Notes under the pieces: model-generated
The model's database searches: none
What the model was told of the DNA's origin: nothing
What the model saw: the letters and a program-made list of their open reading frames with translations, nothing else
From: Stutzerimonas zhaodongensis
Lineage (GTDB): Bacteria > Pseudomonadota > Gammaproteobacteria > Pseudomonadales > Pseudomonadaceae
DNA: 64,000 bases
Assembly (NCBI RefSeq): GCF_003696365.1
Contig: NZ_RFFM01000002.1
Span: 1-64,000, forward strand
Direction of reading: 5' to 3'
Made by a program: the position numbers and the translations under genes
Shown: piece by piece, positions 6,488 through 49,761 of the stretch
How positions within the stretch are numbered: position 1 is the stretch's first letter
How the letters are laid out: each line of letters starts with the position of its first letter

Positions 6488-7138
6488 TCAAGCGTTATTC
6501 AGCGCAGCCAGAGCGTCAGCTGTAGCTTTCTGAATGCTGGCCCAGTCTCCATTCTTAAGCGCTGCGCCGTCGATCATCCAGGTTCCACCCACACACATGA
6601 CGTTCGGAAGCGAAAGGTACTGAGCGGCATTTGCCGCATTCACGCCTCCGGTGGGACAGAAGCGCACGTCAGCGAATGGCCCGCCCAGCGCTTTAATGGC
6701 GGCAACACCACCGCACACTTCGGCTGGGAACAGCTTGAAGCGACGATATCCCAGTGCATAGCCACGCATGATGTCGGACGCATTGCTGATCCCAGCCAGC
6801 AGCGGCACAGAGCAGTTCACTCCGGCTTGCAGCAGCTCGTCAGTAGCGCCGGGCGATACGATGAACTGCGCACCAGCTGCCTCGACCTCATCCATCATGC
6901 GCCTGTCCAGCACCGTTCCTGCCCCAACGCAAAGATCAGGGCGTTCCTGGCGAAGGCGCCGTATCGCCGTCAGGCCGTGAGCAGAGCGCAATGTGATTTC
7001 AAGAGCCTTGAGACCACCCGCCGCAAGCGCATCGGCCAATGGCAGGATCTGCTCCTCGCTGCCAATCGTGATTACCGGAAGGATGCGCGCTTCGGTACAG
7101 ATCTGTTCGATCTGAGCGTTTTTCTGTTCCATGTTCAT
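6488..7138 (-). CDS. eda: 2-dehydro-3-deoxyphosphogluconate (KDPG) aldolase
   Basis: Last step of the Entner-Doudoroff pathway: splits KDPG into pyruvate and glyceraldehyde-3-phosphate. The protein is 216 aa from ATG 7138, preferred over TTG 7144 and ATG 7132 because GAGGAT lies 8 nt upstream. The class I aldolase residues are visible: Glu48 in LEITLRS and the Schiff-base Lys135 in FKLFPAE, plus the phosphate-binding CPTGGV. It lies 19 bp downstream of pgl, as the last gene of a zwf-pgl-eda operon. Confidence 0.96.
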   Translation of the reverse strand: MNMEQKNAQIEQICTEARILPVITIGSEEQILPLADALAAGGLKALEITLRSAHGLTAIRRLRQERPDLCVGAGTVLDRRMMDEVEAAGAQFIVSPGATDELLQAGVNCSVPLLAGISNASDIMRGYALGYRRFKLFPAEVCGGVAAIKALGGPFADVRFCPTGGVNAANAAQYLSLPNVMCVGGTWMIDGAALKNGDWASIQKATADALAALNNA

Positions 7139-7157
7139 GGGCAAAGATCCTCGGCCC

Positions 7158-7871
7158 TCAGGGGCACCAATAGATTTCCAAAGGAGAATGCAGAAATGCG
7201 CGAATGGGCATTTGCATCGGTTCGAGGCTCAGGGCCTGTTGCAGTGTTTCGAGCTTTTCCGATCCCTGAATGGACAGTATTTGCGTGCGTGCCGAGACCA
7301 GGAGCGGATAGGTCATGGTGATGCGCTGTTGCGGCTTGGACGGCGCCAACATCGGCAGGCAGCGCTCTGTGCCGTCCGGATCCAATGCCTGCTCGAGCAT
7401 CGGACTGGCAGGAAACAGCGACGCGGTATGACCATCGCTGCCCATGCCTAGTACCAACACATCAATGGGCTGCCGAAGGCTGGAGAGCTTCTGACCAGCC
7501 TGGTGTGCGGCCTGATCGAGTGATTCGGCGGGCTGAGACAATCCAATCAGCTGCGCTTCGGCCGCTGCGTTCTGCAACAGATGCCGACGCAGCAGACCCT
7601 CATTACTGTCTGGATCGCTGACGTCTACCCAGCGCTCGTCGGCCAGGCTGACCTGGACGCGCGACCAGTCAAGTTCGCATGTGGACAGCGCCTCGAAGAA
7701 CGCAATGGGGCTTCGCCCACCGGATACCACCAAACTCGCCCCGCCCTGCTGGCTCACCGCATCATCAAGCGCGCGAGCGACACGCTCAGCCAGCGCCTGC
7801 GCCATATGCGCTGCGTCTTTGAAGCTTTGAGATCCGACTTCAGCCGGAAGCGGCAAATCAGAGATCGCCAT
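7158..7871 (-). CDS. pgl: 6-phosphogluconolactonase
   Basis: Hydrolyses 6-phosphoglucono-delta-lactone to 6-phosphogluconate, the second step from glucose-6-phosphate. The protein is 237 aa from ATG 7871 (MAISDLPLP), with GGGAGG upstream. DevB/Pgl family signatures are the N-terminal [13 protein letters not shown] and LADERWV, and [13 protein letters not shown] in the middle. The gene starts 14 bp inside the 3' end of zwf, indicating translational coupling, and reads on into eda. Confidence 0.95.
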
Positions 7872-9327
7872 ACCAAGACCTCCCGTCACGAGTGATAAGT
7901 GCGATGGATGCAACTGGACCCCAAGAACCTGCCGGATACGCTTTTGGCGCATCGCCCATGCGTGACCACCCATCGATCAGCTGATCACACCATTTCCAGG
8001 CGTACTCAATTTCATCCTTGCGGACGAAAAGATTCTGGTTGCCCTGCATTACCTCGAGCAGCAATCGCTCGTATGCATCCGGAATGCGGGAGCTCTTGTA
8101 GGTTTGGGAGAAGTTGAGTTGCAGAGGCCCGCTGCGTAAATGCATTCCCTTGTCGAGGCCCTGCTCTTTGGTCATTACCTGCAACGAAATGCCTTCGTCC
8201 GGCTGCAAGCGAATGATCAACCGATTACTGATCAGCGAGCGCTGTTCGGGGGCGAAAATATAGAAAGGCGGCTCTTTGAAATGAATGACAATCTGCGAAA
8301 CCTTTTCGCCCATGCGTTTGCCCGTGCGCAGGTAGAACGGCACGCCTGACCAGCGCCAGTTGCAGATGTCAGCACGCAGAGCAACAAAAGTTTCGGTGCT
8401 GCTCTCCGCATTGGAGTTCTCTTCTTCGAGATAGCCGGGCACCGCCTTGCCGCCGACCGAACCCGCGACATACTGGCCGCGCACTACTTGCTGGCCGATG
8501 CGCTCGGGCGTGATCGGAGCCAGCGCTTTGAGCACCTTCACCTTCTCATCACGGATGCTGTCGGCAGTGAGATCGCTCGGCGGGTCCATCGCGATCAGGC
8601 ACAGGAGCTGGAGCAGATGGTTCTGGATCATGTCGCGCAGCTGTCCGGCCTGATCGAAGTACCCCCAACGCCCCTCGATGCCAACTGTCTCCGCAACCGT
8701 GATTTCCACGTGGGAAATATGGTGCTGATTCCATTGCGTTTCGAACAGACTATTGGCAAAGCGCAGCGCAATCAGGTTCTGCACAGTTTCCTTACCGAGA
8801 TAGTGATCGATTCGGTAAATCCTCGTCTCCGGGAAGTACTGGGCAACCGCATCATTGACCACTCTGGACGATTCGAGGTCATGGCCGATTGGCTTCTCCA
8901 GCACTACGCGGGCCTGATCAGCCAACCCAGCCGCTGCGAGATTTTCACAAATAGCGCCGTACACCGAAGCAGGCGTAGCGAAATAGGCAATCAACGGCAA
9001 GTCCGGCGACACCACCTGAGCGAGGGCCGTGTAATCCTGGGCATTACGGAAATCCATTGTCAGATATTCCAGCCTTGCGCCGAACCGGGATAGGGTCTCC
9101 TCATCTAACTGCGCCGCTGGGACATACCGACGCAACGCCTGTTCGATCCGATCGAGGTGTACCGCTGAATCTCCGATATCGCGCGAGAGCGCCAAGATGC
9201 GGGTGTCACGATGGAGCAGCCCCGCTCGATCAAGCTGGTAAAGTGCTGGGAACAGCTTGCGTAGCGCCAGGTCGCCCAGCGCGCCGAACAAAGCAAAGGT
9301 AGTTGCGTCAACAGTAATAGCAGGCAT
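7858..9327 (-). CDS. zwf: Glucose-6-phosphate 1-dehydrogenase
   Basis: Oxidises glucose-6-phosphate to 6-phosphogluconolactone with NAD(P)+, feeding the Entner-Doudoroff pathway. The protein is 489 aa from ATG 9327 ([15 protein letters not shown]). The nucleotide-binding GALGDLA loop is near residue 12, and the catalytic RIDHYLGKE motif near residue 175. The ribosome-binding site before ATG 9327 is poor (the leader is A-rich), but no better start exists. First gene of zwf-pgl-eda, divergent from hexR across a HexR operator. Confidence 0.97.
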
Positions 9328-18788: not shown

Positions 18789-19760
18789 TCAGCGGCCGCC
18801 GAGTGAGCCCTCCAGCAACTGCTGCAAAGCAACCCCAGCGCCTTCCAGCCCCGGGTACTCGGCTGTCACCACCCACACGGGGACCCTGTCAAAGTACCGG
18901 CTCATGTTGCCTTTGTCGCGGAAGCTTTTACTGAAGCCACTGCGCGCGAAGAACTCAACGAAGCGCGGCACGATCCCACCAGCGATGTATACGCCACCCT
19001 GTGCACCGGTAGTCAGTACGTTATCGCCGGCGATACGACCCAGCCAGACACAGAATTGTTCCAGCACAGCCTCGGCGTATGCATCGCCAGTCAATGCCGC
19101 AGCGGTTACTTCGGCAGGAGAGGTGAATCGAGGCGCTTCGCCATCCAGTGCGCAACTGGTCCGATAAAGCTCAAGCAGACCACCACCGCTCAGGATCGCC
19201 TCAGCATTAACATGCCCGAGTTTCTCATGCAGACGTGCCCACAGCGCTGCTTCCCGGGTGGTGCCGATTGGCAGACAGACATGCCCGCCCTCGCCCGGCA
19301 TCGCCTGCCACATCCCGTCACCCACCGGCAGCAGTGTCGCAACACCGAGCCCGGTGCCTGGGCCAATCACGAGGCGCGCACGCCCGGCTGCCGATTGGCC
19401 TGGGCAGACCTCGATCAGCTCGCCTTCACGCAGGCGCGTCATACCCAGCGCCATCGCACTGAAGTCATTGATCAGCAACAGATCGCTGAGCCCCAGGTCC
19501 TGGCAAAACGAGGTTCGACTCAGGCGCCAGTGGTTGTTGGTAAAAGCAAAATCATCGCCCGATACCGGGCCTGCGCATGCCAGACAGACTGCCTGAAGTG
19601 CCTCAACGCTCTGCCCGACGCCTTGCAGATACGCGCGAATGGCGTCTTCGGGGCGCGGATACTCAACTGTCGGCAAGACCCTCACCGACTCGAGCTGACC
19701 ATCGCGCCAGAGTGCGAAACGTGCATTCGTACCGCCGATGTCTCCTACCAATGCCGTCAC
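18789..19760 (-). CDS. glk: Glucokinase
   Basis: Phosphorylates glucose entering through Gts to glucose-6-phosphate. The protein is 323 aa, starting at GTG 19760, which overlaps the edd stop codon in GTGA with GGAGG upstream; this coupled start gives the family N-terminus [18 protein letters not shown]. The ATP-binding [26 protein letters not shown] and GEGGHVCLP motifs of group B bacterial glucokinases are visible. In-frame codons upstream of 19760 lie inside edd and are not used. Confidence 0.95.
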
Positions 19761-21586
19761 TTGAGCGCCTCCAGCTCCTCGGTGAACACACTCGCGCCTT
19801 TCTCTGCCGGACTGAAGGCCGAACGTAGAAAGCCGAACAGTTCGCGGCCGCAACCGATCCCCAGATCACTTGGCGCCATGACTCGCTCGCGACTGTCAAA
19901 CTCAGCCTGGTCAACCAGAACCCGTAACTCACCTGTTTCACCATCAACACGGATGATGTCGCCGTCGCGCACGCGGCACAGCGGGCCGCCGTCCAGCGCT
20001 TCCGGGCTGACGTGAATCGCCGCCGGCACTTTGCCCGAGGCCCCTGACATGCGGCCATCAGTCACTAACGCGACCTTGTGGCCACGATCCTGAAGTACGC
20101 CAAGGAACGGCGTCAGCTTGTGCAGCTCCGGCATGCCATTGGCCTTCGGTCCCTGGAAACGCACCACTGCAACAAAGTCCCGCTCCAGTTCGGCGTTTTT
20201 GAACGCCTGGGCCAGTTCAGCCTGATCACTGAATACACGCGCTGGCGCTTCGACCACGCGGTGCTCTGGAGCCACAGCGGAAATTTTCGTCACGCCGCGA
20301 CCGAGATTGCCCTCCAGCACACGCAACCCTCCCTCTGGCGAGAAAGCGCGCTCGACCGGGCGCAGGATTGTCTCGTCCAAACTGCCTTGTGGTCCTTCTC
20401 TCCAGACCAGCTTGCCCTCCTCCAGAAATGGCTCCTGCGTGTACTGCTTGAGCCCCTTGCCCATTACGGTGAACACGTCTTCATGTAGCAACCCGGCATC
20501 TAGCAACGTCCGGACCATGAACGGCACACCGCCGCATGCGTGGAAGTGATTCACATCGGCCTGGCCGTTGGGATAGACCTTGGCCAAGGTAGGCGTGACG
20601 GCCGAGACGTCAGCCATGTCCTGCCATGTCAGCTGGATACCAGCCGCCTGTGCGAATGCCGGAATGTGCAAGGTGTGGTTCGTTGAGCCACCCGTAGCGT
20701 TCAGGGCCACCACCGAGTTGATGATCGATTTCTCGTCAACGATCTTGCACAGCGGCAGGTAGTTACCAGATTGCGGCGTCAGGCGCGTCACCTGCCGTGC
20801 GGCTTCGCGGGTCAATTCGTCACGTAGTGGCGTGTATGGGTTTACGAACGACGAGCCCGGCAAATGCAGACCCATGATTTCCATCACTACCTGGTTGGTG
20901 TTGGCCGTGCCGTAAAAGGTGCAGGTGCCGGGGCTATGATAAGAAAGCATCTCCGACTCCAGCAGCTCCTCGCGGCTGGCCTTGCCTTCAGCGTAGCGCT
21001 GCCGAACCTCGGCTTTCTGCTTGTTCGGAATGCCAGAAGGCATCGGCCCACCGGGTACGAATACCGCAGGCAGATGGCCGAAACGCAAGGCGCCGATCAT
21101 CAACCCAGGGATGATCTTGTCGCAGATGCCCAAGTACAGCGCCGCATCGAACATGTTGTGCGACAGCGCAATAGCGGTGGCCATGGCGATCACTTCGCGG
21201 CTGGCGAGGCTCATTTCCATCCCCGGGTCACCCTGGGTCACGCCGTCGCACATTGCCGGCACGCCACCGGCGAACTGCCCCACCGAACCAACCTCACGCA
21301 AGGCCTGCTTGATGATTTCCGGGAAATGCTCATAGGGCTGATGCGCGGACAACATGTCGTTGTAAGCCGAAACGATTGCCACGTTGGCCTCGTTCATCAG
21401 GCGAAGCTGCTGTTTGTCGCTGGTCGAAGCGCAACCGGCAACGCCATGTGCGAAGTTCGCGCACTGCAGCTTGCCGCGTTGCGGCCCGTCGCTCGCCGCA
21501 CCGGCCATCTGCGCCAAATAGCGTTCGCGCGTCGGGCGGCTGCGTTCGATCAAACGTTCGGTAACTTCTTGAATCCGCGGGTGCAT
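19757..21586 (-). CDS. edd: Phosphogluconate dehydratase
   Basis: Entner-Doudoroff dehydratase converting 6-phosphogluconate to KDPG; an IlvD/Edd-family Fe-S enzyme of 609 aa, the usual length. Cluster cysteines are seen in [21 protein letters not shown] and [18 protein letters not shown] lies 6 nt before ATG 21586. It leads a run of overlapping or closely spaced minus-strand genes, edd-glk-gltR-gtrS, and is divergent from gap across a region with HexR-type sites. Confidence 0.96.
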
Positions 21587-40082: not shown

Positions 40083-41819
40083 TCAATGCGAATGGCGCGG
40101 CACCTCGGCGCCGCGGCAACCGACCAGGAAGTCGAAGTCGCACCCCTCATCGGCCTGCAGCACGTGATCGACGAACAGGCGCCGGTAGCCACCGTCCCAC
40201 AGCAAACCCTGCGGAGCCTGCCAGGAAGCCAGTCGTTCTTGCAGTTCAGCATCAGAGATATCCAGGTGCAGGCGACCAGCAAAACAATCCAGCTCGATGA
40301 AGTCGCCGTTGCGCACCACCGCCAGCGGGCCGCCAGCAGCGGCTTCGGGAGCGACGTGCAGCACCACGGTGCCGTAAGCCGTGCCACTCATGCGCGCATC
40401 GGAGATCCGCACCATGTCGGTAATCCCTTTGGCCAGCACCTTCGGCGGTAGCCCCATATTGCCGACTTCGGCCATGCCCGGATAACCCTTTGGCCCGCAG
40501 TTCTTCATGACCAACACGCAGGTTTCGTCGACATCCAGCTCCGGATCGGCGATGCGCGCCTTGTAGTCATCGAAATCTTCGAAGACCACCGCGCGCCCGC
40601 GGTGCTTCATCAGTTCAGGGGTCGCCGCCGACGGCTTCAGCACCGCACCGCTCGGCGCAAGATTACCCCGCAGCACACAGATGCCGCCGTCCTCGCGCAG
40701 TGGATTGTCGAGCGCACGAATCACTTCGTCCTCTCCGTAAATGGGGGCCTGTGCGCAGTTGTCCCACAGCGACTTACCGTTGACGGTGAGCGCATCGGGA
40801 TTGGGCAACAGCTGATTTTCACCCAGACGCCGGATGACTGCGGGTAATCCACCGGCGTAGTAGAACTCCTCCATCAGGAAGCGTCCGGAAGGTTGCAGAT
40901 CGACTATGGTCGGCATGCCCCGCCCGATGCGCGTCCAGTCATCCAGATCGAGTTCGACACCCATCCGCCCGGCGATAGCTTTGAGGTGGATCACTGCATT
41001 GGTCGATCCGCCGATAGCGGCATTGACCCGAATTGCATTCTCGAACGCCTGCTTGGTCAGCACCTTCGACAACCTCAAGTCCTCTTGCACCATATCGACG
41101 ATGCGCATGCCCGACAGATGCGCGAGCACGTAGCGGCGGGAATCCACCGCTGGTATCGCCGCGTTGTGCGGCAGTGAAGTTCCCAGCGCTTCGGCCATGC
41201 AGGCCATGGTTGACGCCGTGCCCATGGTGTTGCAGGTTCCGGCTGACCGCGACATGCCGGCCTCGGCAGACAGGAACTCATCAAGGCTGATCAGGCCCCC
41301 CTTATAAGCTTCGTGCATCTGCCAGACGATGGTACCGGCGCCGATGTCGCGGCCGTTGTGCTTGCCATTAAGCATCGGACCGCCGGTGACGACTATCGCG
41401 GGAACGTCGCAACTAGCCGCACCCATGAGCAGCGCCGGCGTGGTCTTGTCGCAGCCGGTGAGCAGTACCACGGCATCGATGGGGTTGCCGCGGATCGACT
41501 CCTCCACATCCATGCTGGCGAGATTACGCGTGAGCATGGCGGTGGGCCTGAGATTCGACTCACCGTTGGAGAACACCGGGAATTCGACGGGGAAACCACC
41601 TGCTTCCAGCACGCCTTTCTTCACGTGCTCGGCGATTTTGCGAAAGTGCGCATTGCAGGGCGTCAGCTCTGACCAGGTGTTGCAAATGCCGATGATCGGC
41701 TTGCCCTGAAACTCATGGTCGGGGATGCCCTGATTCTTCATCCAGCTGCGGTACATGAAACCATTCTTGTCGGTGGTACCGAACCATTGAGCGGACCGCA
41801 GGGGGCGTTTTTCAGTCAT
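40083..41819 (-). CDS. IlvD/Edd-family sugar-acid dehydratase, probable L-arabinonate/pentonate dehydratase
   Basis: Fe-S dehydratase converting an aldonate to its 2-keto-3-deoxy acid, 578 aa. Cluster cysteines are Cys55 (WSELTPCN), Cys123 (TGCDKTTPA) and Cys196 (SAGTCNTMG). The spacing of 68 and 73 residues is, from memory, that of Rhizobium L-arabinonate dehydratase. It is clearly distinct from Edd at 19757. Next to a TRAP importer, a KGSADH and an AraD1-type protein, a pentonate is the best guess (L-arabinonate or D-xylonate); hexonates cannot be excluded. Confidence 0.8.
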   Translation of the reverse strand: MTEKRPLRSAQWFGTTDKNGFMYRSWMKNQGIPDHEFQGKPIIGICNTWSELTPCNAHFRKIAEHVKKGVLEAGGFPVEFPVFSNGESNLRPTAMLTRNLASMDVEESIRGNPIDAVVLLTGCDKTTPALLMGAASCDVPAIVVTGGPMLNGKHNGRDIGAGTIVWQMHEAYKGGLISLDEFLSAEAGMSRSAGTCNTMGTASTMACMAEALGTSLPHNAAIPAVDSRRYVLAHLSGMRIVDMVQEDLRLSKVLTKQAFENAIRVNAAIGGSTNAVIHLKAIAGRMGVELDLDDWTRIGRGMPTIVDLQPSGRFLMEEFYYAGGLPAVIRRLGENQLLPNPDALTVNGKSLWDNCAQAPIYGEDEVIRALDNPLREDGGICVLRGNLAPSGAVLKPSAATPELMKHRGRAVVFEDFDDYKARIADPELDVDETCVLVMKNCGPKGYPGMAEVGNMGLPPKVLAKGITDMVRISDARMSGTAYGTVVLHVAPEAAAGGPLAVVRNGDFIELDCFAGRLHLDISDAELQERLASWQAPQGLLWDGGYRRLFVDHVLQADEGCDFDFLVGCRGAEVPRHSH

Positions 41820-41880
41820 TGCAATGCACCTGTTTTCGTCGATGGGCCACAGGGCCCGCCAGATTGAACGTTCGGGTTGG

Positions 41881-43182
41881 TTAGAGCAGCCAGGTCGAGA
41901 TTGCCGGGACGTACAGCAACAGGCCGAGCACAGCGATCTGAATGACGATGAAGGGGACCATCGAGCGATAGATATCGGTCAGGGTGATATCTGGGGGTGC
42001 CACGCTCTTGAGGTAGAAGGCTGCCGGCCCGAAGGGTGGCGAGATGTAGGAAACCTGCATGCTCACCGCGAAGAGAATGCCGAACCACACAGGGTCGTAG
42101 CCGAGCTGGACGACGATGGGAACGAAGATCGGCAGGCAGAGCATGGCGATTCCGATCCAGTCGAGGAACATGCCCAGCAGCAGGAAGATCAGCATCATCA
42201 CCAATATGATGACGAACGGCGCTACCTCGAGCCCAGTGATCGCCGACAACACGAATCGGTTGCCGCCCATGAGGTTATAGACACCCACCAGGCAGGCCGC
42301 ACCAATACCGATCCAGACGATCATCCCACAGGTTTCCAACGTCTGCGTCAGGCTTTCCTGTAGCAGCTTGAGGCTGAACTCCCCCCGTACCAGCACTGCC
42401 ATCAGGACGCCCAAGGCTCCCATGGCCGCCGCCTCGGTAACCGATGCGATACCACCATAGATGCTGCCAAGCACCAGCCCGGCAATGGCAATCGGAAAGA
42501 ACATGCCCTTGAAGGCTTCAACCAACGTGAGCCGCGGCTGATTGACGTCCTTCTCAAGATGCGCGCCGCCCATATGCGGGTAACGCATGCACATGATCAC
42601 TACATAGAGCATGTAACTGCCCATCAGCAGCGCTGCGGGCATGATCGCCGCCTTGAACAGGTCAGCAATGGAGACGCTGGCAATCAACCCGTAGATGATC
42701 AGCACGATCGACGGGGGCACCATGGTGCCCAGCGAACCGCCTGCGCAGACCACGCCGATGGCGATGCGCTTGTCGTAGCCAAGCCGCAGCATCTGCGGTA
42801 ACGCCAGCACACCCAGCAGCACGATTTCCCCACCGATAATCCCGGAGATTGCGGCCAGAAAGAATGCGACCACAATGGTCTGCACCGCGACGCCACCCGG
42901 CAGCCGCCCGGCAAAAAAGCGCATGGCATTGAAGAGGTCGCGCGCCAATCCGGATCGATCCAGCAGCCCCGCCATGAATACGAACATCGGGACGGCGACC
43001 AGCGAATACTCGGTGATGAAACCGAACATGCGGCTCGCCACTAGCGGCACGCCAACCGGGCCGAACCAGCCCAGGGTGAAACCTGCGGCGACCAGACCGG
43101 TGACAAAGGCCAACGGCAGGCCCAGAACCAGCAGCGCGAAGATGGCAAAAATCATCAGGTAGGTAGCGATCTCGATGCTCAT
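41881..43182 (-). CDS. dctM: TRAP transporter large permease DctM
   Basis: Large membrane subunit of a tripartite ATP-independent periplasmic importer, 433 aa with about 12 helices (first at about 4-34). GEIVLLGVLALPQMLRLGYDK and GSLGTMVPPSIVLIIYG are DctM signatures. It overlaps dctQ by 4 bp and is followed, 61 bp on, by the dehydratase. It uses a Na+ or proton gradient to bring in the substrate captured by DctP. Confidence 0.93.
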   Translation of the reverse strand: MSIEIATYLMIFAIFALLVLGLPLAFVTGLVAAGFTLGWFGPVGVPLVASRMFGFITEYSLVAVPMFVFMAGLLDRSGLARDLFNAMRFFAGRLPGGVAVQTIVVAFFLAAISGIIGGEIVLLGVLALPQMLRLGYDKRIAIGVVCAGGSLGTMVPPSIVLIIYGLIASVSIADLFKAAIMPAALLMGSYMLYVVIMCMRYPHMGGAHLEKDVNQPRLTLVEAFKGMFFPIAIAGLVLGSIYGGIASVTEAAAMGALGVLMAVLVRGEFSLKLLQESLTQTLETCGMIVWIGIGAACLVGVYNLMGGNRFVLSAITGLEVAPFVIILVMMLIFLLLGMFLDWIGIAMLCLPIFVPIVVQLGYDPVWFGILFAVSMQVSYISPPFGPAAFYLKSVAPPDITLTDIYRSMVPFIVIQIAVLGLLLYVPAISTWLL

Positions 43183-43751
43183 TTGGGCGCATCCAGATCA
43201 GAGCGCGCACGCCGGTGAGTGGCGATCCGCACCACTTGCTGCACCGCCATGAGCGCGATGGACACCAGAATCACGATCTTGGTGAAGGCCGGCAGCGGCT
43301 GATTCCATGAAGAACCGGAGGTTTCCAGGCGCCAACTGCCATCCGGCGCATGTGTCGCGTTATAGGCCAATACCCAGGCCGCATAGCCGATAGCCAGGCA
43401 GAACAGGACTCCCAACACCAGATTCAGCAGTTCCAGCCAGCTCCGCTTACGCGGCGAAAGCCGGTCAAGCAGGATGCGAATCTGGATATGCCGATTGGTG
43501 GCCAGCGCGTAGGGCCCGCCCAGCGCAAAGATACTGGCGACCAGAAACGTGGTGGTCTCGTGCGCCCAGTCGGTGGGCGCGCCGAAGCCATAGCGCATGA
43601 CAACTTCGAACACGCTGACCAGCATTGCCAGGAATACCAGCCAGGCAATCAGCTGACCACCGCGTCTGATACCGCGATCGAGAACGCCTTGCCCGGGCTC
43701 GGGGGCAAAGGCGTCGAGATGATCGTCAGACGAGGGTTGGGGTTTTTTCAC
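43179..43751 (-). CDS. dctQ: TRAP transporter small permease DctQ
   Basis: Small four-helix membrane subunit, 190 aa. The DctQ hallmark is VVMRYGFGAPTDWAHETTTFL at about residues 50-70 and RHIQIRILLDRLSPRKR follows. Extended N- and C-terminal cytosolic tails are hydrophilic. It lies 72 bp after dctP and overlaps dctM. Confidence 0.91.
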   Translation of the reverse strand: MKKPQPSSDDHLDAFAPEPGQGVLDRGIRRGGQLIAWLVFLAMLVSVFEVVMRYGFGAPTDWAHETTTFLVASIFALGGPYALATNRHIQIRILLDRLSPRKRSWLELLNLVLGVLFCLAIGYAAWVLAYNATHAPDGSWRLETSGSSWNQPLPAFTKIVILVSIALMAVQQVVRIATHRRARSDLDAPK

Positions 43752-43823
43752 AGCGAAACTCCTCGGACAGCCCGGCTATACCGGGTGTCGTTGGTCATCG
43801 AACAGACTGCCGCTGAACGCGGC

Positions 43824-44843
43824 TCAGAGCATGCCCTTGTCCTGCAGGTAGGCCTGGATGGAATCCACTGCCTCCTTGGCCTGGGGGCTGCGGTCACGCC
43901 AACGCGCCCACTCTTCGCGAGCGGACTGACGGAATTTCTTCAGCTCGTCCTCAGGGAGTGAGGTCAGCGTCACGTCGCCTTTCTGTTTCGCCAGCGCCAC
44001 CTGCTCCTCGTCTTTCTTCTGCAGGTCACTGACCAGCTGCTCGGTGAAGGCATCGACCGAGTCTTCGAGGATTTTCTGCTGCTCGGACGACAGGTCGTCC
44101 CAGAGCGTCTTGTTGACCGAGATATCTTTCATCGGCATCGAATGAAAGCCCGGATAAACCGCGAAGGGTGCGTACTTGTGATAACCCTGTTGGTAGTTGG
44201 TCGAGAACACCGTGTAATCGGCGGCGTCGATCACGCCCTTTTCCAGCCCGGTGTACACCTCGGAGGTAGGCAGATTCACCGGGGTGGCGCCGACAAGCTT
44301 GAAGATGTTGGAAACCATCCCCTCTGGCGCACGGACTTTCAGGCCCTTGAGATCATCGAGTGACTCGATATTGCGCTTGCTGATAAGGGCTTCCGCACCG
44401 ACCGCACCGGCGCGAATGAGGTGCACGTTGTAAGGCTCGACGAGCCGGTTGTAGCCCTCCTCGCCGCCGGCGTTGCGCATGTAGTCGAGGAATGGAGCCG
44501 GGCCGGTCCAGGCGCCGACCATATTGCCGTACACCGCGAACGCCGGGTTCTTGCCTGAAAAATAGCCAGGATCGGTGATGTGGCCCTGAATGATGCCCGC
44601 GCCAACGGCATCAAGCGTCTCGTTATTGCCTACGATGGTGCCGGTCGGTAGCACCTCAATGGTGATTTCACCATTGGTCTTCTCACCGACGCTTTTCGCC
44701 CATTGCTGAGCAATCTGATATTCGTCGTCCCCCGCGTTGACGTTGATCTGGAATTTCCATTCCTGCTTGGCGAAGGCACTGCCAGATGCGAGCACCAGAG
44801 TTGCGGCAAGGCCGAACCCGAAACGTTGGACGTTCGATTGCAT
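43824..44843 (-). CDS. dctP: TRAP transporter substrate-binding protein DctP
   Basis: Periplasmic solute receptor, 339 aa from ATG 44843 with GGAGAGG upstream. The signal peptide (about 1-24) is cut near SAFA-KQ. The conserved Arg of the carboxylate pocket lies in DDLKGLKVRAPEGMVSN, a family position that pairs with an acid substrate, consistent with a sugar acid. Its leader has a Crc-type CA motif. First gene of the dctP-Q-M-dehydratase operon, divergent from a LysR regulator. Confidence 0.92.
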   Translation of the reverse strand: MQSNVQRFGFGLAATLVLASGSAFAKQEWKFQINVNAGDDEYQIAQQWAKSVGEKTNGEITIEVLPTGTIVGNNETLDAVGAGIIQGHITDPGYFSGKNPAFAVYGNMVGAWTGPAPFLDYMRNAGGEEGYNRLVEPYNVHLIRAGAVGAEALISKRNIESLDDLKGLKVRAPEGMVSNIFKLVGATPVNLPTSEVYTGLEKGVIDAADYTVFSTNYQQGYHKYAPFAVYPGFHSMPMKDISVNKTLWDDLSSEQQKILEDSVDAFTEQLVSDLQKKDEEQVALAKQKGDVTLTSLPEDELKKFRQSAREEWARWRDRSPQAKEAVDSIQAYLQDKGML

Positions 44844-44857
44844 AGCTGCCTCTCCAA

Positions 44858-44865
44858 TTATTTTT
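44858..44865 (-). promoter_or_regulatory. Crc/Hfq CA motif in the dctP leader
   Basis: The dctP mRNA reads AAAAATAA, a match to AAnAAnAA, 14 nt before the ATG and just ahead of the GGAG ribosome-binding site. Short A-rich matches can arise by chance, so this is weaker than the gtsA and porin motifs. Confidence 0.4.
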
Positions 44866-44952
44866 ATAAGGCATTTGATCTCGAGCGAGGCGCAGGCCGT
44901 AAGCATGCGCCCCTCGTTTAACCAGAGCCTAAGGAGACAAGGCATTATCAAC

Positions 44953-44964
44953 AAATATATATTT
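44953..44964. promoter_or_regulatory. AT palindrome in the dctP/LysR divergent promoter region
   Basis: AAATATATATTT is a perfect 12-bp palindrome 33 bp before the LysR start and 110 bp before dctP. A/T-rich dyads in such divergent regions are typical LysR-regulator contact sites. Confidence 0.4.
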
Positions 44965-44996
44965 CGGTCTTACCCATACATGAATGGATATGCCAA

Positions 44997-45983
44997 ATGA
45001 AGCCGATCAACAGCAACTGGTTCGTCCGGGCAAGGCTCAAGAGCCGCCACATCCCGCTGCTGGCGGCCCTTGGCGACACCGGAAATCTCAATCGAGCCGC
45101 TGTTGGCCTGGGTATTTCCCAGCCCGCCATTTCGAAGCTGCTCAAAGAGTTGGAGGACGGGCTTGGCGTCGAGCTGTTCGAACGCCATGCACGTGGGGTG
45201 GTCCCGACGCTGTATGGCGAAGCGATGATCCGCCACGCCAGGCGTATGTTGAACACCCTCGACAGCGCCTACAGTGAAGTCGACGCTCTGCGACACGGGC
45301 AACAGGGGCATGTGCGCATCGGCACCATCCTGACGCCCTGCGCAGAGCTGCTGCCCGAGGTGATCCGCCTTGCCAAACAGCGTTTTCCAGCCCTGGAGAT
45401 AACCATCCGCACCGGGTCCAGTCGCGACCTGTTGGCGATTCTGGATGACGGGGAATTGGATTTCCTGGTGGCGCGGTTCTCCGCTGGCAGCCACCAGGAC
45501 AATCTGTACTTCGAGCCATTGGCCAAGGAGCCGCTACAGATCTGCGCACGTGCCGGGCTTATTGAAGGCCCCATGTCGCGCGCCGAGCTGAATGCTGCGG
45601 ATTGGGTGCTGCCACCGACTGGAAGCGTGTTGCGCCAGGAGTTCGATGCGCTATTCCAAAGGGTCGGCATGCGCCCGCCTAGAAAGGTCGTGAACGCGGA
45701 GAACCTGTTGATGGTGACTACACTGGTCGAGAAGGACGACATGCTCACCGTCCTGCCGCGCGACGTGCTGGCCCACTATGCGCGCTATGGCATGTTGGCG
45801 GAGATCGAGGTTGACGCGAGCATCGACGCCGATCTCAACCAGGGCCTGATGGCATACGGCATTATCACCAAAACCCCACACCAGCTCTCGCCAGCCGCCG
45901 TTGGCGTGCTTGATCTGCTTCGCACTACCGCAGCGGGAATGGGGTTGGGAACGAAAGAAAGCAGCTCACCCGTAGCCGAGTGA
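44997..45983 (+). CDS. LysR-family regulator divergent from the TRAP operon
   Basis: A 328-aa LysR regulator. The N-terminal HTH (about 14-75) reads GNLNRAAVGLGISQPAISKLLKELE; the rest is the periplasmic-binding-like sensor domain. The N-terminus resembles GbpR-type regulators of sugar uptake. Divergent from dctP, it probably senses the sugar acid or its 2-keto-3-deoxy product and activates the operon. It is convergent with the aldehyde dehydrogenase gene. Confidence 0.85.
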   Translation: MKPINSNWFVRARLKSRHIPLLAALGDTGNLNRAAVGLGISQPAISKLLKELEDGLGVELFERHARGVVPTLYGEAMIRHARRMLNTLDSAYSEVDALRHGQQGHVRIGTILTPCAELLPEVIRLAKQRFPALEITIRTGSSRDLLAILDDGELDFLVARFSAGSHQDNLYFEPLAKEPLQICARAGLIEGPMSRAELNAADWVLPPTGSVLRQEFDALFQRVGMRPPRKVVNAENLLMVTTLVEKDDMLTVLPRDVLAHYARYGMLAEIEVDASIDADLNQGLMAYGIITKTPHQLSPAAVGVLDLLRTTAAGMGLGTKESSSPVAE

Positions 45984-45995
45984 GCCGCTTTGCGC

Positions 45996-47576
45996 TCAGA
46001 GCGCTGCGTCTGAGGTTTCACCGTCCACAAGGCGCTTGATGCGCAGCGGATTGGCATTTTTCAGCGCATCCGGCAGCAACGCATCCGGGAAGTTCTGGTA
46101 GCACACGGGACGCAGGAACCGGTCGATCGCCAATGTACCGACCGAAGTACCCCGCGCATCCGACGTGGCAGGATAAGGCCCGCCATGCACCATGGCATCG
46201 CAGACTTCCACACCGGTCGGATAGCCGTTGAGCAGCAGTCGGCCGGCCTTTTGCTCCAACAGAGCCACCAGGTCGGCGGCTTCGGTCAGGTCACCTGGTT
46301 CGGCAATCAGCGTCGCGGTCAGTTGGCCATGCAGGCCCTGGAGCGCGCGCATCAACTCGGCCTTGTCAGCAACTTCGACCACGACGGTGGTCGGGCCGAA
46401 CACCTCCTCCTGCAGCAGCGGATCCCCTTCGATCAGCAGTCGCGCATCTGCCTTGAACAGCTGCGGTTGCGCCTGGTTGCCTTGCTGCGCCTTGCCGGCA
46501 AGATGGCTGATCCCGGTATGGCCCTTCAGATGTTCCAACCCGCTGCCGTAGCTGCTCAGCGTACCCGCGTTCAGCATGGTTTGTGCCGGCTGCTCGCTCA
46601 TGAAACCGACCAGTTTCTCCAGAAGCGCGTCGAACTCAGGGGAGCGCACACCGATAACCAGGCCTGGGTTGGTACAGAACTGACCACAGCCCATCACGAC
46701 TGAAGCGGTCAGCTCGTTGGCGATAGCATCGCCGCGATTCTTGAGCGCATCGGGCATCACCACCACAGGGTTGATGCTGGACATCTCGGCAAATACGGGG
46801 ATCGGTTGCGGGCGCGCCGCGGCCATGTCGCACAGGGCGCGGCCGCCGCGCAGCGAACCGGTGAAGCCCACCGCCTGGATGGCCGGATGCTTGACCAGCC
46901 ACTCACCAACTCCGCCCCCATAGATCATGTTGAACACGCCTTTGGGCATGTTGGTTTTTTCAGCTGCGCGGATCACCGCATCGGCGACGCATTCAGCCGT
47001 GACCATGTGCCCGCTATGGGCCTTGAATACCACCGGGCAGCCTGCAGCCAACGCCGATGCGGTGTCACCGCCCGCCGTGGAGAACGCCAACGGAAAGTTA
47101 CTTGCGCCGAACACTGCTACCGGGCCAAGGCCCATGCGGCACTGACGAAGGTCCGGTCGGGGCAGTGGCTTGCGCTCTGGCAGCGCACGATCAATCCGCG
47201 CGCCATAGAAGTCGCCCCGACGCAGCACTTTGGCGAACAGCCGCATCTGGCCGCTGGTACGGCCTCGTTCACCCTGAATGCGGGCGGCCGGCAATGCCGT
47301 TTCGCGGCATACCAGCGCGACGAAATCATCGCCAAGGGCATCCAGCTCGTCGGCAATGGCGTCGAGAAACTCGGCTCGCCTGCTCGCCGATAGTGAACGG
47401 TATTGAGGATAGGCGCTGGCCGCCGCTTGCGCGGCAGCATTCACTTCTTCTTCGGTGGCTTGATGGAATTCATAAGGCAAGGCCTCCCCGGTGCTGGCAT
47501 CGAGACTCTGCACGATGACTGTGCCTTTCGCACTACGAGCGCCGGCGATGTAGTTCTGACCGCTGATATCGGGCAT
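45996..47576 (-). CDS. Aldehyde dehydrogenase, probable 2,5-dioxovalerate (alpha-ketoglutaric semialdehyde) dehydrogenase
   Basis: NAD(P)-dependent aldehyde dehydrogenase, 526 aa from ATG 47576 with GAGGAG upstream. Catalytic Glu264 (VFAEMSSINPVV) and Cys301 (GCGQFCTNPG) are present, and VFGASNFPLAFSTAGGDT is typical of the long KGSADH family that oxidises alpha-ketoglutaric semialdehyde to 2-oxoglutarate. This is the last step of non-phosphorylative pentose and of glucarate/galactarate breakdown, matching the surrounding genes. It lies downstream of the AraD1-type gene on the same strand. Confidence 0.85.
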   Translation of the reverse strand: MPDISGQNYIAGARSAKGTVIVQSLDASTGEALPYEFHQATEEEVNAAAQAAASAYPQYRSLSASRRAEFLDAIADELDALGDDFVALVCRETALPAARIQGERGRTSGQMRLFAKVLRRGDFYGARIDRALPERKPLPRPDLRQCRMGLGPVAVFGASNFPLAFSTAGGDTASALAAGCPVVFKAHSGHMVTAECVADAVIRAAEKTNMPKGVFNMIYGGGVGEWLVKHPAIQAVGFTGSLRGGRALCDMAAARPQPIPVFAEMSSINPVVVMPDALKNRGDAIANELTASVVMGCGQFCTNPGLVIGVRSPEFDALLEKLVGFMSEQPAQTMLNAGTLSSYGSGLEHLKGHTGISHLAGKAQQGNQAQPQLFKADARLLIEGDPLLQEEVFGPTTVVVEVADKAELMRALQGLHGQLTATLIAEPGDLTEAADLVALLEQKAGRLLLNGYPTGVEVCDAMVHGGPYPATSDARGTSVGTLAIDRFLRPVCYQNFPDALLPDALKNANPLRIKRLVDGETSDAAL

Positions 47577-47649
47577 GGAATGTCTCCTCTGATTGCATGG
47601 ATTCATGAGGCTTCGCCCTGTCCGCTACGAGCGAAGAGCTTGAAACGAG

Positions 47650-47678
47650 CAACCCGGCGTACTGTGCACGCCGGGTTG
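47650..47678 (-). terminator. Stem-loop between the AraD1-type gene and the aldehyde dehydrogenase gene
   Basis: CAACCCGGCGT (47650-47660) and ACGCCGGGTTG (47668-47678) form a perfect 11-bp stem with a 7-nt loop, 31 bp after the AraD1-type stop. There is no U-tract beyond a short TTT. It may end or attenuate transcription before the aldehyde dehydrogenase gene. Confidence 0.55.
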
Positions 47679-47709
47679 TGTTGCGGCCTATCAACCGCCT
47701 GGAAGGACG

Positions 47710-48705
47710 TCAGAGTGGCGTTACGCCGCCCGGAGAAATACCCGGTTGGCAAACGCTGATGCCGTTGCGCAGCGGCGCGCCGAACTCGTCCAGACTGACC
47801 TCGAACTGATCACCCGGCTGGGCTTTGATCCCGTCGGCAAACGAGAGCGTTGCCGTGCCAAAGAAGTGCACGTGTACATCACCCGGACGCAGGAACTGCG
47901 CATACTTGAAGTGGTGGTACTCCAGATTCTCCAGGCTATGACACATGTTCTCCTCGCCGGATAGGAACTCTTTCTCCCAGAGCACTTCACCACCGCGACG
48001 AATACGACTGATACCCGCCAGATGGGCTGGCAATGACCCCACTCGCAATTCGGGACCGAATGAACAGTAGCGTAACTTCGAGTGCGCCAGGTACAGGTAG
48101 TTCTTGCGCTCGAGCACGTGGTCAGAAAACTCGTTACCCAGGGCAAAGCCCAGCCGGTAAGGCCGCCCATCCCCCCCAATCACGTAGAGGCCGGTCAGCT
48201 CGGGCTCCTCACCGTAGTCCTCTGCAAACTCCGGTGCCGGGAAGTCTCCGCCCGGGCGCACCACGATGCTGCCATCACCCTTGTAGAACCATTCGGGCTG
48301 CGCCCCAACGTTACCCGACTGTGGGCGGCCGCCCTGAATGCCCCAACGGAACATCTGCATGGAGTCGGTTAGCTTTGCGTCGTCCTGTTCGCCCTGTTGA
48401 TGCATCTTGTCTCGTGTCGCTGCGCTACCCAGATGGGTCAGACCGGTGCCACTGACGAGGCAATGAGCGGCGTCGCTATGATCGAGTGGCGGTAGCACAT
48501 GGCCTGCTTCGAGCAGGTCGCGGTATGGCGGGCCTGGTTGGCGTTCTGCCATCTGGATCTGCTCACCCAGGCTACGTTGCCCGCGGATTGCCTCCAGTGC
48601 CAGCTCGCGAGTGCTGCCAACCCCGGCAAGCACCTCGATGCGCTCACCGGCAACCACGCCCACCTGCCTGTGACCCTGCTCGTTTTCGAATTGAATCAAC
48701 CGCAT
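47710..48705 (-). CDS. AraD1-type FAH-superfamily protein, probable 2-keto-3-deoxypentonate dehydratase
   Basis: A 331-aa protein of the fumarylacetoacetate hydrolase superfamily from ATG 48705, with GAGGAAGG upstream. Conserved features are SGTGLTHLGSA near residue 90, WFYKGDGSIVV, acidic metal ligands in YGEEPELTGLYVIG, and LGNEFSDH. It is the family named AraD1 or GguC, found in sugar-acid loci. Between a dehydratase and a KGSADH it would supply the missing step, 2-keto-3-deoxypentonate to alpha-ketoglutaric semialdehyde, like XylX of the Weimberg pathway. This function is inferred from context. Confidence 0.72.
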   Translation of the reverse strand: MRLIQFENEQGHRQVGVVAGERIEVLAGVGSTRELALEAIRGQRSLGEQIQMAERQPGPPYRDLLEAGHVLPPLDHSDAAHCLVSGTGLTHLGSAATRDKMHQQGEQDDAKLTDSMQMFRWGIQGGRPQSGNVGAQPEWFYKGDGSIVVRPGGDFPAPEFAEDYGEEPELTGLYVIGGDGRPYRLGFALGNEFSDHVLERKNYLYLAHSKLRYCSFGPELRVGSLPAHLAGISRIRRGGEVLWEKEFLSGEENMCHSLENLEYHHFKYAQFLRPGDVHVHFFGTATLSFADGIKAQPGDQFEVSLDEFGAPLRNGISVCQPGISPGGVTPL

Positions 48706-48828
48706 GCGCACCTTCCTCTTGTTGTGTTGCCGCCCCACCTCATGGAGGTTTGTTGTGATCACTTTAAAAACCGCTCTCGCTGGTGCCTAATGACGGCTTC
48801 TGATTGAGTGATAACTTCCAGTCATCCC

Positions 48829-49761
48829 ATGATTGCCGCCCTGCCCTCCATCGTTTCCCGCCTCCGGCTCAAGCAGCTGCGGTTATTGATCGCCCTCGAC
48901 GAACAGGGGTCGCTGCATCGCGCCGCCGAGCAGGTGTTCATCAGCCAGCCCGGCGCGACCAAGTCGCTGCATGAGATCGAAAACACCTTTGGCGCAGAAC
49001 TGTTCACCCGCAACAGCCAGGGGTTGGTGCCAAACGACCTGGGCCGCTGCGTAATCCGCTACGCCCGCCTGATCCACAGCGATCTGGCGCACCTGCGAGA
49101 GGAAATGGTCGGGATACTGCAGGGCCAGGGAGGACGGCTCTCTGTGGGCACGATCATGGGCGCCGTTCCGATGCTGATGCGTGCCCTGGGCCGGCTACGG
49201 CGCAAGCAACCCGAGCTTTCAGTGGAGATCGTCGAAGACACCAGCGCGCGTTTGCTGGGACTGGTCGAGCAAGGCCGGCTGGATCTTGCGATCTGCCGTA
49301 CCAGCGTGAGCCAACGGCCGGACGCCTACGACGCCCTGACGTTGCATCCTGAGCAACTGACCATTGTGGCTCACCCGGACCACCCAGCTGGGCGCGCAGG
49401 CATGCTCTCCCTGGCCGACCTCAGCATTTACCGCTGGGTCGTCTATCCCGCCAACATGCCCATGCGGCTGCTGCTCGAACGTGAGTTCAGCCAGTGCGCT
49501 TTGGAATTCCCGCGCTACCCGGTTGAGACCGCTTCTACTTTTACGATGCTCAGCCTCCTTCAGGAAGACCCGGAGCTGGTCGCGGTGATGCCATTGGCGG
49601 TCGCGGAGTTCAGCGAAAAGTTCGGCATTATTCGCCGCCTGCCCCTGAAGCTGCAGTCACGTAGCGAACCTTATGGCGCCGTCGCCCGGCGTGGCAGCAG
49701 GCTGTCTGCTGCGGCTCTGTTGTTGCTCGAAGAATTGCAGACCGAGCAGCTCTCGGCCTGA
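48829..49761 (+). CDS. LysR-family regulator divergent from the AraD1-type gene
   Basis: A 310-aa LysR regulator; ATG 48829 is taken as start, though GTG 48808 is possible. The HTH reads GSLHRAAEQVFISQPGATKSLHEIE. The C-terminal sensor domain has typical LysR features (LSVGTIMGAVPMLM, LVEQGRLDLAIC). Only moderately similar to the LysR at 44997, so the two halves of the sugar-acid locus appear to have separate regulators. The divergent gap (48706-48828) holds the palindrome GTGATCAC at 48754-48761. Confidence 0.83.
   Translation: MIAALPSIVSRLRLKQLRLLIALDEQGSLHRAAEQVFISQPGATKSLHEIENTFGAELFTRNSQGLVPNDLGRCVIRYARLIHSDLAHLREEMVGILQGQGGRLSVGTIMGAVPMLMRALGRLRRKQPELSVEIVEDTSARLLGLVEQGRLDLAICRTSVSQRPDAYDALTLHPEQLTIVAHPDHPAGRAGMLSLADLSIYRWVVYPANMPMRLLLEREFSQCALEFPRYPVETASTFTMLSLLQEDPELVAVMPLAVAEFSEKFGIIRRLPLKLQSRSEPYGAVARRGSRLSAAALLLLEELQTEQLSA

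Follow-up and report, generated by a model that had tools for sequence, protein, structure and literature searches.

The acid half of a probable split oxidative L-arabinose pathway in Stutzerimonas zhaodongensis, with a TRAP importer and an AraD1/GguC protein

An acid-half locus and its proposed pathway

The first 64,000 nucleotides of contig NZ_RFFM01000002.1 of Stutzerimonas zhaodongensis (the window) carry, at positions 40083 to 49761, a locus comprising a tripartite ATP-independent periplasmic (TRAP) importer, an IlvD/Edd-type dehydratase, an aldehyde dehydrogenase, an AraD1/GguC protein, and two LysR-type regulators. In our view the locus probably makes up the acid half of an oxidative L-arabinose/L-arabinonate pathway of the Weimberg type ("Route II") in split form, whose sugar-oxidizing genes would lie elsewhere in the genome. 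The computed basis consists of the protein families, the fold and conserved active site of AraD1, the co-occurrence of AraD1 with an L-arabinose importer gene, and the fusion of both halves in a relative.

From this basis we infer the substrate, the ligand of the importer, the individual catalytic steps in this organism, and the regulation by LysR-type proteins. DctPQM would import L-arabinonate, which the IlvD-type enzyme would dehydrate to L-2-keto-3-deoxyarabinonate (L-KDP, where KDP stands for 2-keto-3-deoxypentonate). AraD1, as a metal-dependent enzyme, would then take out another water, and the resulting 2-oxoglutarate semialdehyde would be oxidized to 2-oxoglutarate by the aldehyde dehydrogenase. 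The original prediction had proposed such a TRAP-fed route from a pentonate to 2-oxoglutarate, with AraD1 as a KDP dehydratase of the fumarylacetoacetate hydrolase (FAH) fold, and this part of the prediction is supported.

Composition of the locus

All eight open reading frames (ORFs) were confirmed inside the locus, and the families predicted for the importer, the IlvD/Edd dehydratase, and the AraD1-type FAH protein hold by profile scores and Pfam. The dehydratase (40083 to 41819, minus strand), probably an L-arabinonate dehydratase, matches the ILVD_EDD N and C domains with 366 and 205 bits, passes the model of the PRK06131 subfamily (NF004784; 963 bits against a cutoff of 539), and is 67 to 68% identical to annotated L-arabinonate dehydratases in Paracoccus (L122) and Sinorhizobium (L123) records. 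The NADP-type aldehyde dehydrogenase (45996 to 47576, minus strand, in an ORF extending to 47606) matches Aldedh with 161 bits (cutoff, 23). Its closest solved relatives are 3v4c (476 bits) and 1eyy (466 bits), the next scoring 91, and it groups with the NADP aldehyde dehydrogenases of Vibrio harveyi and S. meliloti. It had been called a 2-oxoglutarate semialdehyde dehydrogenase (KGSADH); an aldehyde dehydrogenase is indeed present, but it scores well under the KGSADH equivalog NF042993 (114 bits versus a cutoff of 770), and the KGSADH role is a probable one, assigned by context.

Each TRAP subunit scores above a family cutoff. The large permease DctM (41881 to 43182, minus strand) has 289 bits to TIGR00786 (cutoff, 268), and the small permease DctQ (43179 to 43751, minus strand) has 86 bits to Pfam DctQ (cutoff, 28). 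The solute-binding protein DctP (43824 to 44843, minus strand) is under TIGR00787 (91 versus 175 bits) but above the cutoffs of Pfam DctP (169 bits) and TRAP_S1 (114 bits; cutoff, 50), with 4pe3 as its closest solved relative (315 bits). The regulators, both matching Pfam LysR_substrate and HTH_1, lie on the plus strand, regulator a (44997 to 45983) divergent from the dctP operon and regulator b (48808 to 49761) divergent from araD1.

The probable starts of AraD1, DctP, and perhaps KGSADH are internal to their ORF starts. That of AraD1 is the ATG at 48705, whose Met is invariant in all 44 alignment rows and which has GAGGAAGG upstream; that of DctP, by reading frame, is the ATG at 44843, which begins a signal-peptide-like stretch; and that of KGSADH is perhaps the ATG at 47576, with GAGGAG upstream. 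Neither the ORF list nor family searches yielded a sugar dehydrogenase, a lactonase, or an AraD of the dihydrodipicolinate synthase (DHDPS) type within 40083 to 49761, and searches of the window with Rfam (gathering threshold) and for tRNAs gave no matches.

AraD1 as a probable FAH-fold dehydratase

AraD1 (47710 to 48705, minus strand, in an ORF extending to 48762), the probable KDP dehydratase, passes the AraD1/GguC model NF040903 over the whole protein (536 bits; cutoff, 340). It matched no Pfam family at an E value of 0.001, and hence not PF01557 (FAA_hydrolase). The sole match of its sequence profile with a significant score is KdaD (2q18), at an E value of 1.8e-8 (0.11 from the single sequence). 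According to a review, KdaD binds its metal through residues 143, 145, and 164 and uses Glu114 and Lys182 as the catalytic pair (PMC9795676). AraD1 residues E138, E167, E169, E192, and K210 align with KdaD E114, E143, E145, D164, and K182, so that AraD1 has the three acidic metal ligands and the Glu/Lys pair taken here as the mark of an FAH-type KDP dehydratase; position 164 is Asp in the 2q18 chain (Glu164 in the review) and Glu in AraD1. Among 17 family members drawn from Gammaproteobacteria, Alphaproteobacteria, and Bacteroidota, none of the five residues varies. Five positions picked at random in this stretch would all be invariant with a probability of 0.007, which makes conservation by itself modest evidence, to which the identities of the residues add.

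A structure model of AraD1 was built from the window protein and 43 of the 80 named relatives described below (predicted local distance difference test score [pLDDT], 77.7); an earlier model from the window protein and 22 relatives (pLDDT, 51.5) was not used. Of 26 further rows, 5 were excluded because an in-frame stop precedes the conserved start (L035, L071, L076, L095, and L105), and other relatives were excluded for size. The top structural match is KdaD (2q1a; Z score of 23.5 over 273 residues, 3.4 Å, about 18% identity), with which YisK (Z, 22.9) and the D-KDX dehydratase 9kkv (Z, 22.7) are tied within 1 Z; FAH hydrolases score 20 to 22 (8gsr, 20.6; others, up to 22.1). Of the 50 structure matches listed, the first 49 are FAH-type proteins. 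The predicted fold thus places AraD1 in the FAH family, and its residues point to a dehydratase. By analogy with KdaD, Glu138 would take a proton, Lys210 would protonate the C4 hydroxyl, and the three Glu residues would bind the metal.

The likeness of AraD1 to XylX-type proteins is weak in profile comparison (probability of 23, E value of 9e-4). As for a second, XylX-type FAH enzyme in the same genome, a search with PF01557 gave two proteins, on contigs C22 and C21 and none on the window contig; a query with a XylX protein was not run.

The AraD1/GguC family had been described as biochemically thin, which is half right. Among the papers listed, which leave out most subscription journals, we found none on AraD1 or GguC by those names, and a name match in PMC11760712 was discarded since it reflects the E. 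coli genotype araD139 each of the three times it occurs. On the other hand, FAH-type KDP dehydratases, one of them preferring L-KDP, have been characterized (PMC6336799), and arabinose induces a cluster laid out in the same way in Pseudomonas putida M2 (PMC10107873); AraD1 membership of those proteins is putative.

Sugar import and oxidation elsewhere in the genome

The reported lack of a sugar dehydrogenase, a lactonase, and a DHDPS protein holds for the locus but not for the genome, which encodes two membrane-bound pyrroloquinoline quinone (PQQ) dehydrogenases of the glucose/quinate/shikimate family above the cutoff, three SMP-30-type (SGL) lactonases, two DHDPS proteins, and an AraFGH locus. 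Candidates for sugar import and oxidation lie in stretches L120 and L129. On contig C1, a row of genes encodes a GntR-type regulator, an SGL lactonase, a short-chain dehydrogenase/reductase (SDR), AraF, AraG, AraH, DgoK, an enolase-type dehydratase, and an aldose epimerase. AraG (809 versus 689 bits) and AraH (510 versus 378 bits) both exceed the L-arabinose equivalog cutoffs, and AraF scores 401 bits against the L-arabinose-binding protein of E. coli; the SDR and the SGL lactonase are only candidates for the sugar-oxidizing steps.

L-Arabinose might reach the acid half in two ways. It could enter through AraFGH and be oxidized to L-arabinonate by the C1 SDR and lactonase, or a PQQ dehydrogenase could oxidize the sugar in the periplasm, with the TRAP importer taking up the acid. 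The earlier suggestion that the aldonate comes from outside or is made in the periplasm is thus supported as a possibility by the two PQQ dehydrogenases, which are putative for this sugar. Because genes for the missing sugar-oxidizing steps appear to be present elsewhere in the genome, the locus looks like a known pathway in split form and not a new pathway, the TRAP importer and the split layout being details. The claim that the absent dehydrogenase and lactonase mark an undescribed variant is not supported, given the candidates in L120 and L129 and the co-occurrence of AraG with AraD1 across the genus. A variant without any sugar oxidation was likewise judged unlikely at the genome level, given the PQQ dehydrogenases, the SGL lactonases, the AraFGH locus, and the AraG co-occurrence.

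A hidden DHDPS-type AraD was also considered and rejected. One of the two DHDPS proteins is presumably DapA, by score. The weaker one sits on contig C21 (110 to 130 kb; L117) with an enolase-type dehydratase, an epimerase-fold dehydrogenase, an SGL lactonase, and, by eye, transporter-like and aldehyde dehydrogenase-like ORFs. These neighbors fit a glucarate/uronate catabolism locus, as which L117 is read, and the weaker DHDPS protein is therefore read as KdgD, partly by eye.

Of the genome's four IlvD/Edd proteins, the window carries the one described above and a second (PF00920, about 19757 to 21586), which, judged by eye from size and neighbors, is probably the Edd phosphogluconate dehydratase belonging to a glucose cluster that also lies in the window. 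On contig C27 (L136, 8209 to 11393), an IlvD/Edd protein 47.7% identical to the window's is followed by a 450-amino-acid protein that by eye resembles GntP-type permeases, and this stretch is possibly another sugar-acid locus.

Distribution and co-occurrence of AraD1

The distribution of AraD1 is patchy: it is present in 16 of 56 genomes of the genus and in none of 21 genomes from other families of the order; among 229 genomes drawn from the class, 3 have it above the cutoff, the S. zhaodongensis genome included. AraG is above its cutoff in 12 of the 56 genomes, and all 12 carry AraD1 (AraD1 with AraG, 12; AraD1 alone, 4; AraG alone, 0; neither, 40; Fisher P value = 3.3e-9, uncorrected for kinship). 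A PQQ dehydrogenase is above the cutoff in 15 of the 16 AraD1 genomes, the matches in G291 being split. In another Stutzerimonas genome (G303), both halves are fused in a single locus (L145) with the order DctM-IlvD-epimerase / DgoD-AraH-AraG-AraF-SDR-SGL-GntR-KGSADH-AraD1 / LysRb.

TRAP genes lie in the AraD1 stretch of 10 of these 16 genomes (G000, G238, G246, G253, G255, G262, G291, G298, G299, and G303) and are absent from that stretch in 5 (G240, G251, G261, G286, and G292), TRAP genes outside the stretches not having been sought; the contig of G231 is too short to judge. Across the 15 genomes, TRAP genes in the stretch and AraG occur together in 8, TRAP genes only in 2, AraG only in 4, and neither in 1 (G251).

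A scan of named genomes gave at least 581 AraD1 relatives, and the 80 named loci, with gene maps made by tblastn, are the best 80 of these, and their counts therefore speak for close relatives only. Near AraD1 in these loci, KGSADH is found in 67, IlvD in 53, both in 45, and SGL in 16, and AraF, AraG, or AraH (at least 50% identity) is found in 16.

Alternative explanations

Several observations weigh against assigning the locus to L-arabinonate. Within the genus, 4 of the 16 genomes with AraD1 have no AraG above the cutoff, namely, G231 (71% complete) and G251, G253, and G299 (99 to 100%). In 5 of the 80 named loci neither IlvD nor KGSADH is near AraD1, 64 have no AraF, AraG, or AraH in the stretch examined (18 of the 80 stretches being under 20,900 bases), and only 1 has the SDR, at a minimum of 50% identity, near AraD1. 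The closest solved relatives of the C1 SDR are general (164 bits), and the C1 locus, because it includes DgoK and an enolase-type dehydratase, may serve D-galactose first, also or mainly. The IlvD protein is under the cutoff of the L-arabinonate dehydratase equivalog NF009559 (836 versus 882 bits) and thus is filed not as that equivalog but only as working like one. On the import side, a ligand of the DctP (4pe3) branch was looked for and not found, and at 50% identity or more DctP occurs in 2 and DctM in 1 of the 80 named loci, which makes the TRAP importer a local choice. The AraD1 model is weak at residues 154 to 160 and 218 to 228, near the catalytic Glu and Lys. Finally, AraD1 stands beside L-rhamnonate dehydratase, PdxA, and SMP-30 genes in Sphingomonas (L127) and near an altronate dehydratase-family gene in Runella (L126), partners which suggest that the range of the family may extend beyond a single 2-keto-3-deoxy acid.

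The IlvD score and the partners in L126 and L127 also favor a locus for different or wider aldonates (D-xylonate, D-ribonate, D-arabinonate, D-galactonate, and D-fuconate), L-arabinonate being one of its substrates or not a substrate at all, as does the use of both D- and L-KDP by C785_RS13680 and C785_RS13710 (PMC6336799). However, a XylX-type protein with 434 bits to 9kkt, titled a 2-keto-3-deoxy-D-xylo- enzyme, adjoins AraD1 in 6 of the 80 named loci and also in L019, L023, L025, and L147. This arrangement suits a split of D-KDP and L-KDP between the two proteins and would leave L-KDP to AraD1, and the AraG co-occurrence and the fused locus point to L-arabinose; we regard a wider range as unlikely. 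A locus that purely scavenges environmental aldonates, independent of the cell's sugar oxidation, seems to us slightly less likely still. Its own TRAP importer and regulators would suit such a role, as would G253 (L017) and G299 (L147), which have AraD1 and TRAP genes but no AraG above the cutoff; the presence of AraD1 in all 12 AraG genomes, the fused locus L145, and the PQQ dehydrogenases in 15 of 16 AraD1 genomes argue the other way.

We judge it highly improbable that AraD1 acts in Route I or III, as an aldolase or a 2,4-diketo hydrolase with pyruvate and not 2-oxoglutarate semialdehyde as the product. Although the FAH fold includes hydrolases with Z scores near those of the dehydratases (20.6 for 8gsr and up to 22.1), KdaD is the sole significant profile match, its Glu/Lys pair and metal ligands are invariant in the family, and 67 of the 80 named loci have such an aldehyde dehydrogenase close to AraD1; Route III 4-dehydrogenases were not looked for.

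Other gene neighborhoods of AraD1

A permease of the major facilitator superfamily (MFS; at least 70% identity) is near AraD1 in 48 of the 80 named loci. A GntR regulator and IlvD accompany it in the mapped loci L057 to L105, except L086 and L099, with L059 starting within IlvD, and Pseudomonas relatives have the gene order IlvD-MFS-AraD1-KGSADH. Annotated operons read chvE-mmsA-mmsB-araD1-araD-Gfo/Idh-ALDH in Paracoccus and chvE-mmsA-mmsB-araD1-ALDH-araD in S. meliloti (ALDH, aldehyde dehydrogenase), both with an ATP-binding cassette (ABC) importer before araD1. In Acinetobacter baumannii (L128), a gap of 10 bases separates the AraD1 match from the end of an MFS protein (6686 to 7990) annotated as the fluoroquinolone efflux pump AbaQ. 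This protein sits where the presumed sugar-acid importer sits in Pseudomonas, and by context its native role may be aldonate import. In another group (L040, L042, L044 to L046, L048 to L052, L054, and L086), AraD1 is near some or all of TctA, MFS, amidohydrolase-2, and PdxA-family genes. With these neighbors and no IlvD in the stretch, AraD1 may serve another acid pathway there.

Implications

The acid-half reading offers a specific, testable role for AraD1/GguC, a widespread family whose NCBI model name gives no activity. It also shows that the "missing" first step of a catabolic locus can lie elsewhere in the genome, and it points to a ligand for TRAP binding proteins of a branch that has so far had none assigned. 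We speculate, with the case for and against close to balanced, that a single L-arabinose regulon has two entrances, ABC import of the sugar and a dedicated TRAP importer whose DctP, of the 4pe3 branch, has a new L-pentonate specificity and recaptures acid made by the cell's own periplasmic PQQ dehydrogenases or leaked by neighbors, and that, in Pseudomonas and rhizobia, the FAH-fold AraD1 generally takes the place of the DHDPS-type AraD.

Comparison with known systems

The A. baumannii locus L128, with the order GntR-IlvD-MFS-AraD1-KGSADH, encodes IlvD, AraD1, and KGSADH proteins that are 86, 63, and 73% identical to those of the window, and it has an MFS protein and GntR where the window locus has TRAP and LysR. 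It may be one of the published pentonate clusters of that species. The aldopentose pathway of Alberti et al. 2023 in A. baumannii reportedly leads from arabinose to 2-oxoglutarate, and its pentonate clusters are said to have their own uptake system and regulator, with the first oxidation outside the cluster. The study is cited and briefly described in a later article (PMC11617691).

For P. putida M2, the published account describes an araD-araX-araA cluster with a permease between araX and araD; proteins for an IlvD-type dehydratase, a second dehydratase, and KGSADH that are raised on arabinose; and an abolition of growth on arabinose when the periplasmic glucose dehydrogenase gene gcd is repressed (PMC10107873). 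The order of this cluster is that of the IlvD-MFS-AraD1-KGSADH loci mapped in other Pseudomonas, and from this gene order we infer that AraX is an AraD1-family protein; its permease is MFS-like, whereas the window locus has TRAP. A computed reconstruction for Halomonas HL-48 and HL-93 has an ABC importer for L-arabinose, a predicted TRAP importer for L-arabinonate, a nonorthologous AraD candidate, and the regulators AraR (LysR) and AraR2 (GntR), in contrast to two LysR-type regulators in the window locus (PMC5507952).

Two FAH-type KDP dehydratases of Herbaspirillum huttiense, C785_RS13680 and C785_RS13710, have been characterized and accept both D- and L-KDP; C785_RS13710 moderately prefers L-KDP, gives 2-oxoglutarate semialdehyde, and has Glu138 as a catalytic residue (PMC6336799). 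This number is the same as that of the matching Glu in the window AraD1 (131 to 142 in 17 members); a common family is no more than a lead. Sulfolobus KdaD (2q18, 2q19, 2q1a, 2q1c, 2q1d, and 3bqb) shares its fold and five active-site positions with AraD1, but it is named for D-KDP, whereas AraD1 is proposed for L-KDP. The Azospirillum-type pathway has a DHDPS-type AraD beside its other genes, unlike the window locus. The oxidative (Weimberg-type) pathway requires an L-arabinose dehydrogenase and a lactonase; these would be encoded outside the window locus, where an SDR and an SGL lactonase accompany AraFGH on contig C1.

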